DNA of 64,000 nucleotides from a virus: positions 1 through 64,000 of IMG/VR virus record IMGVR_UViG_3300035670_012065; one strand, given 5' to 3'. The position numbers were made by a program, and so were the translations under genes. Within the stretch, counting starts at the first letter, position 1. Every line of letters starts with the position of its first letter. Of this stretch, positions 40,204-45,334 are shown one piece after another. Below the pieces are notes generated by a model that was given only the letters and a program-made list of their open reading frames with translations, was not told the origin of the DNA and made no database searches.

Positions 40204-40231
40204 ATTATAAATGATCCTGGTCGTTTGTCAA
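40204..40231 (-). promoter_or_regulatory. Consensus sigma70-type promoter for ssb
   Basis: On the minus strand a perfect -35 TTGACA (40226-40231) and a perfect -10 TATAAT (40204-40209) are separated by 16 bases. Transcription would start near 40197, giving a leader of about 35 bases with AGGAG (40173-40177) before ATG 40162. The -35 box overlaps the TGA stop (40228-40230) of the polymerase C-half gene. Two perfect hexamers in a short intergenic gap before an abundantly needed protein make this convincing; it implies recognition by a host housekeeping sigma factor. Confidence 0.85.
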
Positions 40232-41841
40232 GATCTCGGAACAAAGCATTTTTCTACGACAAAAGAGTCTTTTTTGGGGCTTTTATTGCCAACAAATATT
40301 AAAACATTTCCTTCAAAAAGATAATTTCTATATATAGATAGTTGTTCAGGAAATACTATTACACTGTCTAGGCTAGAGAATTGATCTTCTATTGTTAAAA
40401 AGGCCATATCAGATCCTGCATATTTACCCTTTTTTGTTTTCACAAAATTAATATAGCTTATTTCGCCAGCTAAAATAATATTTTTAGTAGAATTAGTATT
40501 CTTGAAGGTTTTGCAATCACAATTTGTCATGCTAATATCGTAGGAATCTATTTTGAAACAAGTTATTGAGGCTCCTAATAATGAATTTTCCGTATCAGAT
40601 AGCCATTCTATTTTGTCTGTTAGGGAGTATGGTGGATTATTATAAAGATTTATTAAATTTTGAATTGAATTTTTACGTTTTATATTAATCTTATTTTTTG
40701 TCAATAGGTTTTCCAAACATTCTTTTAATGAATAAGAATCAAGCTCTATTAGCTCCAATTCTCTTGATGTTAACTCCGAAACTATATCATAATCAAACAA
40801 CATTTTTGTTCTTGATATATTATAATAGTCTAATGCCCCGGAACTAATAAGAGCTTTGGCTGCTGTGGAATTAATTTTGGTCAAGAGTTTTACCAATGAT
40901 GTATTCCAAGAAATATTATTAATGTCAAGATCTTCACAAAGTTTTACTATTTTATCGTAAACAGAAAAACCAACACCTTTTATATCTGTCAAGCCGAAAT
41001 ATATCTTATTATCGGCAATTATAAAATGTTTATTTAGCTTTCTTAGATCCGGGACACAAACAACAACATCCATTTCTGTTGCATTTCTTATCAATTCTTT
41101 TATTTCTTTTTGTGGATCCATTTTATCTTTAGCAAATTTTAAATACGATGCAAAGAATGGTTTTGCAAAATGAGCTTTGGCGTATGCTGATGAGTATGCG
41201 TTCATAGCATATGAAACAGCATGAGACGCATTGAATGAATATCTTTGTGATTTTTCAACCCAACCAAAAATTTCTTCAGACTCTTCATCATTAACAATAT
41301 TTATTTTTTTTGTGCCTTCTTTAAATTTTATTTTAACCTTTGCCATTTCTTCTGGTTTCTTTTTACCTATGGCTTTTCTTAACATATCAGCCTCTTGTAA
41401 ATCAAAACCAGCTATTATTTGTGCTATCTGCATAGCTTGTTCCTGATAAATCATTTCTCCATAGGTAGATTTTAGTATTGGCTTAAGAGCCGGATGAAAA
41501 TAATCGATACTTTCTTGACCATTTTTTTTATCAATATAATGATCACTAACGCTTTTGCCGTCTCTAATAGCCTCCAAAGATCCTGGTCTCATTATGCTAA
41601 TCAAAGCTGATAATTGTTCTATGTTTTGTGGCTTTAATTTCTTTGCCATGCTAGAACCTAGTCTTGATTCAAGCTGAAATACCCCCTTTGTATTTCCCTC
41701 GCTGATTAAATCCCATGTTTTTGAACAATTAAGATTTAGGTCATCGAGCTTTCCACTAAAATAGATTTTTGGATGTTTTTTATCGTCGCAATCGATAATT
41801 GGAAATTTACATCCACATTCAAAAGAGTAATATTGGTTCAT
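40228..41841 (-). CDS. dnaE: DNA polymerase III alpha subunit, C-terminal half (split gene)
   Basis: 537 residues. After an N-terminal cysteine patch (FECGCKFPIIDC) it enters the DnaE fingers at TWDLISEGNTKGVFQLESR, then ALISIMRPGSLE, EMIYQEQAMQIAQIIAGF, AIGKKKPEEM and YSFNASHAVSYAMNAYSSAY. These are followed by helix-hairpin-helix-like sequence (TDIKGVGFSVYDKI) and a C-terminal OB domain (FLTIEDQFSSLDSVIVFP). It continues exactly where the 43433-45253 product ends relative to full-length DnaE. The catalytic aspartates are in the other half, so the two chains must associate. It starts by a 4-base overlap with the exonuclease stop. Confidence 0.9.
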   Translation of the reverse strand: MNQYYSFECGCKFPIIDCDDKKHPKIYFSGKLDDLNLNCSKTWDLISEGNTKGVFQLESRLGSSMAKKLKPQNIEQLSALISIMRPGSLEAIRDGKSVSDHYIDKKNGQESIDYFHPALKPILKSTYGEMIYQEQAMQIAQIIAGFDLQEADMLRKAIGKKKPEEMAKVKIKFKEGTKKINIVNDEESEEIFGWVEKSQRYSFNASHAVSYAMNAYSSAYAKAHFAKPFFASYLKFAKDKMDPQKEIKELIRNATEMDVVVCVPDLRKLNKHFIIADNKIYFGLTDIKGVGFSVYDKIVKLCEDLDINNISWNTSLVKLLTKINSTAAKALISSGALDYYNISRTKMLFDYDIVSELTSRELELIELDSYSLKECLENLLTKNKINIKRKNSIQNLINLYNNPPYSLTDKIEWLSDTENSLLGASITCFKIDSYDISMTNCDCKTFKNTNSTKNIILAGEISYINFVKTKKGKYAGSDMAFLTIEDQFSSLDSVIVFPEQLSIYRNYLFEGNVLIFVGNKSPKKDSFVVEKCFVPRS

Positions 41842-42533
41842 GTTTTACTAAAAGCGTTTTTAAATTTTACCTTGTTAGAGAGATTCCTATGTAATTTCAT
41901 AAATCTAATTAATATATCTGCTGTTGCTTTGACGTCGTTTAATGCGTCGTGAGAGCCTTTATTTCCTAAGCCTAAATACTCTCTAACATTATCCAACGTA
42001 TAGTTCTTAAGTTCGCTATTTCCTTCAAACCAATAGAAAATAATATTCATAAGGTCGATAACGTCTCGTGGATAAAAAAGAGATGTTCTTCCTTCCTTAT
42101 TGAGATTGTTGTACTTTACACTAAGTCTTTCTATAATACGTAAATCAAACCTATTTATATTATATCCAGCAGCAATAGGCGCTGTGAAACATGACTTTTT
42201 ATCAGATCTTATGTGATATTGCTCTAGATAAGAGACAAACATCTTCCATCCACTATCTTGTTGTTGGTAATTTTTCCAATCTTCTAAAATTTTTGTTTTT
42301 TCACAACCCCTAACCTTAGCGTGAAAATCTAAAACATCGGTATCATCATATATGTATTCGGAATTTTCTTCTAACGCATATGGTTTTAGATTTATATTAA
42401 ATTCTGAGTCTTTAATAATTTCTAGTTTATACGGATCTATCATTAATGCAGCGATTTGAACTGGACTACAAGAATCGGGATTTACCCCGTCTGTTTCCAA
42501 ATCAAAAACACAAATTTTTTGTAAATTAGCCAT
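41838..42533 (-). CDS. DnaQ-like 3'-5' exonuclease (proofreading type)
   Basis: 231 residues. The DEDD motifs are complete: ExoI VFDLETDG (residues about 9-16), ExoII AAGYNINRFDLRI (about 120-132), and ExoIII GSHDALNDVKATADIL (about 193-208), with His giving the DEDDh type. The sequence between ExoI and ExoII is slightly expanded. Lying between the two halves of PolIII alpha, it most likely proofreads for that polymerase as the epsilon subunit does. It overlaps both neighbours (4 and 8 bases), indicating tight co-translation. Confidence 0.88.
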   Translation of the reverse strand: MANLQKICVFDLETDGVNPDSCSPVQIAALMIDPYKLEIIKDSEFNINLKPYALEENSEYIYDDTDVLDFHAKVRGCEKTKILEDWKNYQQQDSGWKMFVSYLEQYHIRSDKKSCFTAPIAAGYNINRFDLRIIERLSVKYNNLNKEGRTSLFYPRDVIDLMNIIFYWFEGNSELKNYTLDNVREYLGLGNKGSHDALNDVKATADILIRFMKLHRNLSNKVKFKNAFSKT

Positions 42534-42708
42534 TTGTCTCCACTACTGTGTTTCCTGGGAAAAAAGTCCTTTGTTTAGTGTCGTTAGAAACATGACAATT
42601 TACGCTTCTACAACAGCTTACTCTAGTTTCTTGTATTTTAGTATACTCGATATTATTTACTTTAAAATTTTCACCAACTGCTACTTGATCTAAAGTTTTT
42701 GTTAGCAT
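42526..42708 (-). CDS. Small conserved-type phage protein, unknown
   Basis: 60 residues with a strong GGAGG site five bases before ATG 42708. It contains VAVGENFKVNNIEYTKI, a CCRSVNC cysteine cluster and ends in RTFFPGNTVVETN. It looks like a compact beta protein. The start overlaps the stop of the HNH gene by one base (ATG/TAA) and its end overlaps the exonuclease start by eight. The excellent ribosome site and coupling argue it is real. Function unknown. Confidence 0.6.
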   Translation of the reverse strand: MLTKTLDQVAVGENFKVNNIEYTKIQETRVSCCRSVNCHVSNDTKQRTFFPGNTVVETNG

Positions 42709-43403
42709 TATAGGCCTCCATCTAATAGATTTTTATATAACGTTATTTTTTTACACCAATTTAAAAAGTCTTTTTCTGGCATATTTCTTTTCATAAAATT
42801 CAAATCCTTATGAATCCATTGTATATTATTCTTCTCATAACCTAGATCAGAATCTATCCTATCCAAAGAAGCATTACTATATTTTCTCGTTTTTACAGTA
42901 TACGGGAAATGTAAGATTTCACCACTTAAAGCACAGCGCCTATTTTGTTTCAAAAAAACATCCCAAGCTTCTTCTATGGTTATATTTACCTTTATCTCTC
43001 TATCTTTAGCTCCACGCAAAATCCTACTCCAATACTCAGCTCTAATTTCTTCGTATCCGCAATATGATTTGTGTTCTTTTCCTCTTTTTCTAGATTTACA
43101 TCCACAACTTTTGGTATTCCCATTATAGAGAGAATTTCCTAGAACTTCTATTGTTTTGCCGCAATCACAAGCGCATAAAAATAGCGCATGACTATGTCTG
43201 TCTTTTCCTGCATATTTGATTGGTTTAAGCGAGCCAAATTTTTTTCCGATAAAAGAATTAGAGATATCTTTTCGTATATTGTATTTTTTAAGCTTCAAAC
43301 TAATCCATGCCTCAGAACATCTGTAAATTTTAGCTATTTCTCTTTGTTTTTTATTTTCTTTGTATATCATTCTTTCCAAATCTTTTTTCGTAATTTTTTG
43401 CAT
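42708..43403 (-). CDS. HNH-type homing endonuclease between the PolIII alpha halves
   Basis: 231 residues. Residues 1-50 form a helix-turn-helix (KKQREIAKIYRCSEAWISLK). Residues about 52-105 are a zinc-containing DNA-binding module (FLCACDCGKTIEV, then KSCGCKSRKRGKEH) as in AP2/HNH homing enzymes. The C-terminal nuclease core has RCALSG, NASLDRIDSDLGYEKNNIQW and LNFMKRNM, a diverged HNH/His-Me finger arrangement. It sits immediately downstream of the N-half of the split polymerase gene, the place expected if a mobile endonuclease caused or exploited the split. Confidence 0.78.
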   Translation of the reverse strand: MQKITKKDLERMIYKENKKQREIAKIYRCSEAWISLKLKKYNIRKDISNSFIGKKFGSLKPIKYAGKDRHSHALFLCACDCGKTIEVLGNSLYNGNTKSCGCKSRKRGKEHKSYCGYEEIRAEYWSRILRGAKDREIKVNITIEEAWDVFLKQNRRCALSGEILHFPYTVKTRKYSNASLDRIDSDLGYEKNNIQWIHKDLNFMKRNMPEKDFLNWCKKITLYKNLLDGGL

Positions 43404-43432
43404 AATCCTACCTACTAAAAATTGATATAATC

Positions 43433-45253
43433 CTATACACCATTTTTTAAAATGTCAGAAATATGCATTATCTTGTCCAAAAAAGCTATGCCTAATACAT
43501 CGAATTTTATTAAACCTAAACTTTCTAGATCGTTCATCTCCATGCCTGCTATTAGCTGATCATTTTTGTTATCATAAACCATTGGGCATAAGGTGGAAAG
43601 ATCTTGAGTTCCTATAATTACACCAGCCGCATGTTTGCTTTGATTAGATTTTGTTCCTTCCAGCCTAATAGCTTGTTCAAATCTTTTAGACAAGGGTCCT
43701 ACAAGAGAGCCGTCATCAGATATATAGCACCATTCTTTGAGTTTGTCAACATTATTTTCTAGTGCCCATCTAATAATTGATGCTTCTCCGGTATCCTCTT
43801 TCATTTCTTGTAATTCGTCTGCTATCTTGGCTTCATCGGGAATAAATTTTGTGATGGTGTTCATTTCTTCGAAGCTTATATTGCCGTAAACTCTTAGTAC
43901 GTCTTTAAGAGCGCCTCGACCTTTCATAGTATTAAATGTGATCATTTGCGAAACTTTATTTTGACCATATTTATTTTTTATGTAGTCTAATACATTTTCT
44001 CTTTTATCAATTGGTATATCCATGTCAATATCTGGCATTGAGACCCTATCTTTCGTATTTCTTCCACTATTATAGAATCTTTCGAATAACAAATTATACT
44101 TAATGGGATCAATATCTGTTATGCCAACCAAATAAGAAACCAAACAACCAGCACAACTACCTCTTCCTGGACCAGGGAGCCAATCCTTATTCCTAACATA
44201 ATTCACTATATCTTGCACAATAAGAAAGTAGCTACTAAGCCCAGCGCCTTGCAGTATTTCTAATTCATGTTTTATTCTATCCACATATATATTTTGATTT
44301 TCTTTTGATATTGTTGTGGCTATTCTATTTTTCCAACCGTTTCTACATAATTCTCTCAAATATTCATCCGCATCGAATCCTTTTGGACAATCAAACATAG
44401 GTAATTTAGGAGCAGATAATATATCGAATTCTTGAATTAGATTATCTATTAAGCATGTATTTTGTATTTCTTCTTCATTATGAAGATTTTTCATTTCTCC
44501 AGGAGAAAGTATATAGTATTTGTCGCTTTTGAAAAAACACTCCATAGGAACATCCTTATCATTTAATAATTTTGTATTAATATCTGATAAAGTTGTTTTT
44601 AAATTATTACATAACAATATTCTTTGATCTACCGCATCATCTTGAGAGACATAATGGGCATCAGGAGTACAAACCGCTTTTATTTTACTTAATTCTGATA
44701 ATCTCCTTATTGTTTGAGTAAGATATTCTTGTTGTTTTAAGGCATCTTTATCAAACAATTGTGTCTCTAAATAAAAATTATTATTACCAAAAATCTCTAC
44801 CATATGGTCTATGAAAGATAGTCCATTTTTTATAGCACTATCTTGATCTCCCAATAAAGTATCCGAAAGGGTTGATCCAAGATGGCCGCATATTCCTATG
44901 ATATTACCGTCCAATAACTTTGATAGGTTGTCTATGCTTAGTCTTGGTTTATGATAAAAATATTCTGGCTTATTAGATTCTGAAACTATTTTTATTAGCG
45001 TTTTCCATCCCTCTAAATTTTTTGCTAAAACTAAAAAATGACTTAGTTTAGAGTTTTCTTTCGTTTTTATAGAGGCATCTTCTTTGCATATATAAAGTTC
45101 GCAGCCTAAAATAGGCTTAATATTTTTTGATTTTAATTTTTGATAAAACTGAACGGTTCCTGCTATACTTCCATGGTCTGTTATTGCACAAGACTTTATG
45201 TCAAAATCTTGGCATCTAGATGCTATTTTTTCCGGTTTGCTTAATCCATCCAA
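43433..45253 (-). CDS. dnaE: DNA polymerase III alpha subunit, N-terminal half: PHP domain and palm
   Basis: 606 residues counted from TTG 45253, an in-frame codon that is probably not the true start (see 45254-45318). PHP motifs: CAITDHGSIAG (about 17-27), HLGSTL and CTPDAHYV. The polymerase palm has PGPGRGSCAGCLVSYLVGI, MPDIDMDIPIDKR with two catalytic Asp, HAAGVIIG, and LIKFDVLGIAFL with the third. The chain ends just after this motif (ILKNGV), so it contains all three catalytic aspartates but lacks fingers, HhH and OB, which are in the 40228-41841 product. No intein-like sequence is present at either broken end, so splicing in trans is not indicated. Confidence 0.88.
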   Translation of the reverse strand: MDGLSKPEKIASRCQDFDIKSCAITDHGSIAGTVQFYQKLKSKNIKPILGCELYICKEDASIKTKENSKLSHFLVLAKNLEGWKTLIKIVSESNKPEYFYHKPRLSIDNLSKLLDGNIIGICGHLGSTLSDTLLGDQDSAIKNGLSFIDHMVEIFGNNNFYLETQLFDKDALKQQEYLTQTIRRLSELSKIKAVCTPDAHYVSQDDAVDQRILLCNNLKTTLSDINTKLLNDKDVPMECFFKSDKYYILSPGEMKNLHNEEEIQNTCLIDNLIQEFDILSAPKLPMFDCPKGFDADEYLRELCRNGWKNRIATTISKENQNIYVDRIKHELEILQGAGLSSYFLIVQDIVNYVRNKDWLPGPGRGSCAGCLVSYLVGITDIDPIKYNLLFERFYNSGRNTKDRVSMPDIDMDIPIDKRENVLDYIKNKYGQNKVSQMITFNTMKGRGALKDVLRVYGNISFEEMNTITKFIPDEAKIADELQEMKEDTGEASIIRWALENNVDKLKEWCYISDDGSLVGPLSKRFEQAIRLEGTKSNQSKHAAGVIIGTQDLSTLCPMVYDNKNDQLIAGMEMNDLESLGLIKFDVLGIAFLDKIMHISDILKNGV

Positions 45254-45318
45254 AAGTGAAAAATGTGATTCACTTAAGAATGGACGTGCAACGGCACATA
45301 ATTGCGTTCCACGCCCAT
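45254..45318 (-). other. Out-of-frame true N-terminus of PolIII alpha with hairpin: possible translational bypass site or frameshift
   Basis: On the minus strand an AAGGAG site precedes ATG 45318, which opens a 14-codon frame MGVERNYVPLHVHS followed by TAA (45274-45276). NYVPLHVHS is the expected DnaE beginning, with HVH as PHP metal motif I. The matching continuation HFSLLDG lies in another frame starting 11 bases after the Ser codon. A 7-bp stem (AAGTGAA 45275-45269 with TTCACTT 45260-45254, 8-base loop) spans the gap. The codon before the stop is TCT (Ser) and the codon just before the resumed sequence is TCA (Ser). Skipping from one to the other restores the family consensus exactly. A mutation or assembly error is the alternative. 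Confidence 0.6.
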
Positions 45319-45334
45319 ACTTTAAAATCTCCTT

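Follow-up and report, generated by a model that had tools for sequence, protein, structure and literature searches.

Known bypassing systems

To our knowledge, efficient programmed translational bypassing in phages has so far been represented largely by one example, gene 60 of phage T4, and Bonocora et al. are said to have described the T4 39/60 homing-endonuclease cassette in 2011. In gene 60, according to two accounts, a stem-loop on the 5' side forms again behind the ribosome, exerting a pull on the mRNA, and the take-off codon sits together with the stop codon in a take-off stem-loop (PMC5009743, PMC11194080). Magnusiomyces mitochondria have byp elements at 81 sites in one genome, reported to be independent of mRNA context, and a bypass is suspected in the terminase gene of Streptomyces phage Hau3 (PMC5009743). 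In the open-access literature, no description of bypassing was found for any DNA polymerase gene.

The element described here interrupts dnaE, the gene of DNA polymerase III alpha, and is best read as programmed translational bypassing carried by a mobile HNH cassette that is independent of T4 gene 60 and built like it, a reading to which we assign a probability of about 0.8. The elements shared with gene 60, some of which a preliminary description of this DNA had named, include a short ORF1, a take-off codon followed by a stop and a take-off stem-loop (hairpin B below) containing both, as gene 60 is portrayed in parts of PMC5009743, PMC3014915 and PMC11194080. A separate 5' stem-loop (hairpin A) lies upstream of the take-off site and could re-form behind the ribosome, coding resumes in another frame, an HNH endonuclease gene adjoins, and the distribution among related phages is patchy.

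The two differ in other respects. Gene 60 is a topoisomerase gene with a gap of 50 nt and the Gly codon GGA, whereas the present gaps of 8-12 nt follow a Ser codon, TCY, in Pol III alpha; the landing codon is at times mismatched at position 1, hairpin A contains the start codon, the HNH gene overlaps the dnaE start, and many natural variants cover all three frames. No sequence relation to gene 60 was seen, nor a KKYK-type nascent peptide about 30 residues before take-off, ORF1 having only 13-15 codons; since it is too short for KKYK, the element is filed not as a gene 60-type member but only as working like one. In contrast to the Magnusiomyces byp elements, it occupies one site and has a strong conserved structure and an HNH gene. 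The Hau3 terminase likewise is a phage gene with a short gap, but it is linked to a UUA codon, and no such hairpin pair or endonuclease is described in the part of the source that covers it (PMC5009743).

The interrupted polymerase gene

The window, that is, the whole stretch of 64,000 nt that was analysed, is part of a 65.7-kb virus record. The interrupted gene comprises the following features.

45329 to 45334, minus strand: Shine-Dalgarno AAGGAG of ORF1, 10 nt 5' of ATG 45318, by direct reading
45274 to 45318, minus strand: ORF1, MGVERNYVPLHVHS followed by TAA; the first 14 DnaE residues, including PHP motif I (HVH)
45277 to 45279, minus strand: take-off codon TCT (Ser); TCT or TCC in 41/41 distinct hairpins
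45266 to 45276, minus strand: 11-nt non-coding gap TAAGTGAATCA, with the stop TAA at 45276-45274 and the landing codon TCA at 45268-45266
43433 to 45265, minus strand: ORF2, HFSLLDG..., the remaining DnaE N-half (PHP and palm/NTPase domains)

From ATG 45318 the codons of ORF1 are ATG GGC GTG GAA CGC AAT TAT GTG CCG TTG CAC GTC CAT TCT, then TAA (45276-45274); ORF2 is entered at 45265 with CAT TTT TCA CTT TTG GAT GGA in a different frame, in which TTG 45253 is the earliest conventional start codon. Direct reading of the minus strand bears out the preliminary description in its main elements: AAGGAG, ATG 45318 and a DnaE start with HVH before TAA; HFSLLDG resuming 11 bases on in another frame, open to 43433; skipped bases that end in TCA, synonymous with TCT; and a 7-bp stem over the gap (45275-45269 with 45260-45254). 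It contained neither the longer hairpin B nor the second, upstream hairpin, the variation in gap length or the HNH association. With the ORF1 residues joined on, the Pfam PHP match scores 124.5 bits, compared with 101.5 without them, and its start moves from profile position 11 back to 2. No tRNA genes were found in the window.

Recurrence among viral relatives

The same interruption at the same codon occurs in about 77 other viral contigs (48 distinct 5' ends), and contiguous dnaE relatives (69 distinct) also exist. When relatives were fetched by the protein 3' of the gap, which places no selection on the 5' end, 18 of the 88 distinct loci were interrupted after HVHS and the remainder were contiguous through HxHSxxSLLDG; the same break in loci fetched regardless of their 5' end is not due to chance. 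Among 2.9 million viral contigs, the DNA pattern for PLHVHS followed by TAA or TAG gave 74 matches, 72 of them the dnaE site. As this set was selected for GTCCATTCYTAR, the invariance of those letters is to be judged on the 18 unbiased loci, in which it also holds. Further patterns added L223/L237, L238 (the only real match of the pattern for the TGC/TGT variant) and the TGA variants L248/L249. A Shine-Dalgarno sequence is present in 48/48 distinct interrupted loci. A pattern scan of a genome collection gave one true match and six unrelated ones, and the GenBank phage collection, searched with the element by blastn, gave no match. The true match (RFVO01000077.1, 8130 bp) is a contig with the element that binning had assigned to a Chitinophagia MAG, which hints weakly at a Bacteroidota host.

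The comparison with dnaE relatives proposed in the preliminary description gave a divided picture, many sharing the break and the hairpins and others being contiguous and devoid of hairpin A. The close contiguous relatives L001 and L002 are 82-83% identical. L002 is contiguous, yet it retains GTCCATTC, GGATGGAC and a 15-nt spacer, and thus appears to have lost the gap precisely and not long ago.

Two overlapping hairpins

Two stem-loops are predicted around the interruption.

45280 to 45318, minus strand: hairpin A, predicted 5' stem-loop; ATGGGCGTG (45318-45310) with CACGTCCAT (45288-45280), plus an inner stem
45244 to 45285, minus strand: hairpin B, predicted take-off stem-loop; outer stem GTCCATTC (45285-45278) with GGATGGAT (45251-45244)
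45275-45269 with 45260-45254, minus strand: upper stem of hairpin B, AAGTGAA with TTCACTT; apical loop TCACATTT

Hairpin B exceeds the 7-bp stem by 8 bp beneath it (GTCCATTC with GGATGGAC, GGATGG..); it encloses the take-off codon, the stop and the gap, is predicted in all interrupted sequences and covaries. Hairpin A, whose 3' arm ends directly 5' of the take-off codon, pairs the start region (ATGGRCRTG) with the HVH codons (CAYGTCCAT), and 44/48 sequences form 9/9 pairs of its lower stem. Columns 7/33 show R/Y covariation, with G-C in 27, A-U in 18 and G-U in 3 sequences (n=48), or 26/14/3 among 43 distinct rows. ORF1 of the interrupted genes has a mean MFE of -17.9 kcal/mol, compared with -7.1 for synonymous-codon shuffles (mean z -4.9), and the 5' end of contiguous relatives has -1.6 compared with -1.7 kcal/mol after recoding, that is, no hairpin A signal; we regard synonymous recoding as the strongest control for this predicted structure. 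Cognate halves formed stronger pairs than halves re-dealt among sequences: in this test, which kinship inflates, 0/1000 permutations reached the observed mean for hairpins A and B alike. Three of the five measures of covariation in hairpin A were reached by 0/500 shuffles. The measures "both sides changed" and "pair types" were not above shuffles in the covariation tests of either hairpin, because most stem columns are invariant and the gap placement of MAFFT is not structural; alignment in structural register shows AU/UA and UA/CG/AU exchanges. L238, which has no GTCCAT, keeps hairpin A through replacement of ATGGAC/GTCCAT by ATGGCA/TGCCAT, and the TGA variants carry compensatory GAGTG/CACTC.

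Folding the region with hairpin A or with hairpin B gave nearly equal means (-28.4 and -27.2), and since both need GTCCAT the two folds are nearly isoenergetic and compete for one strand. The overlap of the hairpins with codons of a conserved motif limits the independent evidence that their covariation provides, and since the start codon lies within hairpin A, control of initiation may account for some of the conservation of this hairpin.

Protein-coding constraint on both sides of the gap

The gap is followed by H or M and then by Y or F (D in one case), residues that contiguous relatives also have there; the dipeptide equals that of the nearest contiguous relative in 21/31 lineages against 14.1 expected (p=0.001). 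These residues follow the polymerase family tree, which argues that their codons are translated as DnaE; since they sit upstream of TTG 45253, a start at this TTG cannot explain their conservation. The PHP metal-site motifs TDHG, GCE and PDAHY are kept in 47/47 interrupted proteins. Judged from these sequences, ORF1 and ORF2 are probably made as one protein. Another candidate landing site, the TCN of YSLL, is the next Ser codon at a distance of 17-21 nt and would always match; it was rejected because the preceding H/M and Y/F evolve as protein.

The same observations weigh on termination followed by reinitiation, in which ORF1 would be a leader peptide, the polymerase would arise from an internal start (TTG/CTG in LLDG, or an ATG/GTG) and the hairpins would regulate the coupling. 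Reinitiation near stops is common in phage operons, and a start-like codon does follow shortly after the stop in all loci, including an in-frame ATG 7-8 nt past the stop codon in one subclass. This ATG, however, was rejected as a reinitiation start, since it corresponds to a Met that is the normal residue in contiguous relatives (HVHSMYSLLDG). By eye, no Shine-Dalgarno sequence lies at a fitting distance before the LLDG leucine codon, which is CTG in 3/48 loci, and about half of the loci are without any other start codon in the ORF2 frame. Reinitiation would also have to accommodate residues 5' of TTG that evolve as protein, and an ORF1 that retains the PHP motif sequence while the rest of the PHP site is fully conserved, and we consider it improbable.

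Gap lengths, stop and landing codons

Counted from the Ser codon to the next DnaE residue, the gap measures 8, 9, 10, 11 and 12 nt in 3, 8, 13, 16 and 1 of the 41 distinct hairpins, respectively, and all three frames are represented. At the level of sequence, the layout is one of two ORFs for one protein, constrained on both sides of a gap of 8-12 nt that may fall in any frame. Directly 3' of TCY stands TAA or TAG, in 41/41 distinct hairpins, where the pattern required it, and in 18/18 unbiased loci; L243/L247 have TGA. The landing codon is TCN (TCT, TCA or TCC) in 27/41 distinct hairpins, thus in the same TC- box as the take-off codon, and ACT, GCT or GCC, with a different first base, in 14/41; in L223/L237 it is TTT. 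Re-pairing with a matched codon is therefore not universal. The proposal in the preliminary description of a TCT-to-TCA bypass over the stop gains comparative support as the best reading, while the T4-like relatedness of take-off and landing codons that it supposed, generalized as TCT to TCN, holds in only about two-thirds of the variants.

Gap lengths of 8-12 nt could all be served by a slide, by reinitiation or by removal of RNA, but not by a single frameshift or readthrough. In removal at the RNA level, an RNA-processing enzyme would cut the hairpin and ligate the ends, deleting 8-12 nt before translation. Such a process would work in any frame, RNA ligases can be phage-carried, and the near-invariant C and free first base of the landing codon would fit a junction between CATT and CN. 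The interrupted region has no match in Rfam, however, we know of no element that excises 8-12 nt from bacterial mRNA, and the presence of a stop directly after the Ser codon in every copy, as well as hairpin A, would be left unexplained; this makes RNA removal less probable still than reinitiation. Restoration of the frame by frameshifting or stop readthrough seems to us highly improbable: readthrough alone would join the frames in the 9-nt and 12-nt variants, but those of 8, 10 and 11 nt need different shifts at the same codon, there is no slippery heptamer, and extra residues would be added. Since all three frames occur, neither sequencing error nor readthrough nor simple frameshifting can be the common explanation. 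A real lesion or an assembly or sequencing error in a dead gene, a caveat of the preliminary description that the existence of contiguous relatives (the close L001 and L002 included) might favour, is contradicted by the presence of the same feature, with covarying stems and flanked by conserved ORFs, in dozens of contigs that were assembled independently, and is practically negligible.

The HNH gene and a probable mobile cassette

The window itself contains an HNH gene at another position.

42708 to 43403, minus strand: HNH endonuclease gene placed directly 3' of the DnaE N-half, an insertion seen in this window only; distantly related (about 37% identical) to the HNH gene adjoining ORF1 elsewhere

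Elsewhere, an HNH gene, identified by PHROG profile matches to HNH endonucleases, lies directly upstream of dnaE in six interrupted loci, with a remnant in three more; full or remnant copies adjoin 9/47 interrupted genes compared with 0/69 contiguous ones (Fisher 1.8e-4). An independent search for the HNH family gave 9 loci, 9/9 with an interrupted dnaE immediately downstream, most on contigs already in the set and two, L243 and L247, new. The end of the HNH gene of L177 (1627-2343) falls within ATGGACATGA, and the gene overlaps dnaE, which starts there at 2334. Its codons N-K-E supply the Shine-Dalgarno AAGGAG, a motif that in cassette-bearing relatives belongs to the 3'-terminal part of the HNH gene. 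Contiguous dnaE genes overlap the upstream nuclease gene by 4 nt in 56/69 cases, and interrupted ones have a spacer of 11-108 nt in 34/44 measurable loci, which is what an insertion would leave behind on later losing its HNH gene. Interrupted genes are scattered over the dnaE tree, with 21 changes, at least 11 of them on well-supported branches of this quick tree. In L014/L088 the pre-gap residues are PLHVHS and those of the nearest contiguous relatives VLHAHS, which suggests that ORF1 travels with the cassette. As in a cassette, an endonuclease gene stands beside the proposed bypass element and is missing from empty alleles. The element would have arrived with an HNH gene inserted before dnaE, which would keep or spread it; this unit is probably a cassette, and the gap would shield its own copy from the predicted HNH cleavage.

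More HNH genes of the same broad family lie about 1.1-1.7 kb upstream of dnaE in L045, L047 and L061; such farther-upstream genes were found in interrupted and contiguous phages alike.

A model of bypassing in dnaE

Comparative sequence evidence lends strong support to bypassing, through the many lineages, the three frames, the covarying hairpins, the evolution of the post-gap residues as DnaE and the mobile HNH gene. In the proposed mechanism, the ribosome would start at ATG 45318, read 14 codons and stall with Ser-tRNA on TCY, the A site being occupied by the stop codon. At this stage the P site would hold TCY, and the inner-stem arm (CCNYT) would lie about 11-15 nt upstream, near the mRNA exit. 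The mRNA would then be released, and the ribosome would slide 8-12 nt and land on an NCN codon (TCA in the window), translation resuming at H/M-Y/F-S-L-L-D-G to give an uninterrupted DnaE N-half with its PHP motif intact. Hairpin A would re-form behind the ribosome and hairpin B be unwound ahead of it; since they need the same GTCCAT and differ little in energy, a switch between the two folds could draw the mRNA forward, as has been proposed for gene 60 of T4. At odds somewhat short of even, this may be a second, independent kind of bypass, in which two near-isoenergetic hairpins exchanging GTCCAT drive a short slide, with no long nascent-peptide signal and with tolerance of 8-12 nt gaps and imperfect landing codons, the element being spread as an HNH-linked mobile unit that, in a large clade of uncultured phages, repeatedly entered or left the gene of the replicative polymerase.

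If the bypassing reading is true, dnaE would provide a second phage example, with about 50 natural variants of a divergent family in an essential gene and in three frames; evolution could then reveal the rules of take-off, landing and mRNA refolding and make them open to testing. The idea of cassettes in which a homing endonuclease and a bypass element move as one would also gain support. Genes of this kind are likely to be annotated as truncated or misstarted.

Polymerase split and other inserts

Pol III alpha (40228-45318 in the window) is split clade-wide into an N-half (PHP and palm) and a C-half, between which lie a 60-aa ORF and a DnaQ-like exonuclease.

40228 to 41841, minus strand: DnaE C-half (finger, HHH), a separate gene throughout the clade

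The statement of the preliminary description that all other genes are intact is thus true only loosely. No intein was seen at the N/C split in the window. Other mobile elements also interrupt the polymerase. Inserts in or near its catalytic region occur at about residue 411 of the N-half in L022, L023, L025, L027, L028 and L212, and the polymerase inserts gave no Rfam intron match. At about residue 370 of the N-half, L147, L156 and L188 carry inserts with intein-like Hint sequences, and the insert of L022 carries a LAGLIDADG-like ORF (AYWLGFIFGDGN).
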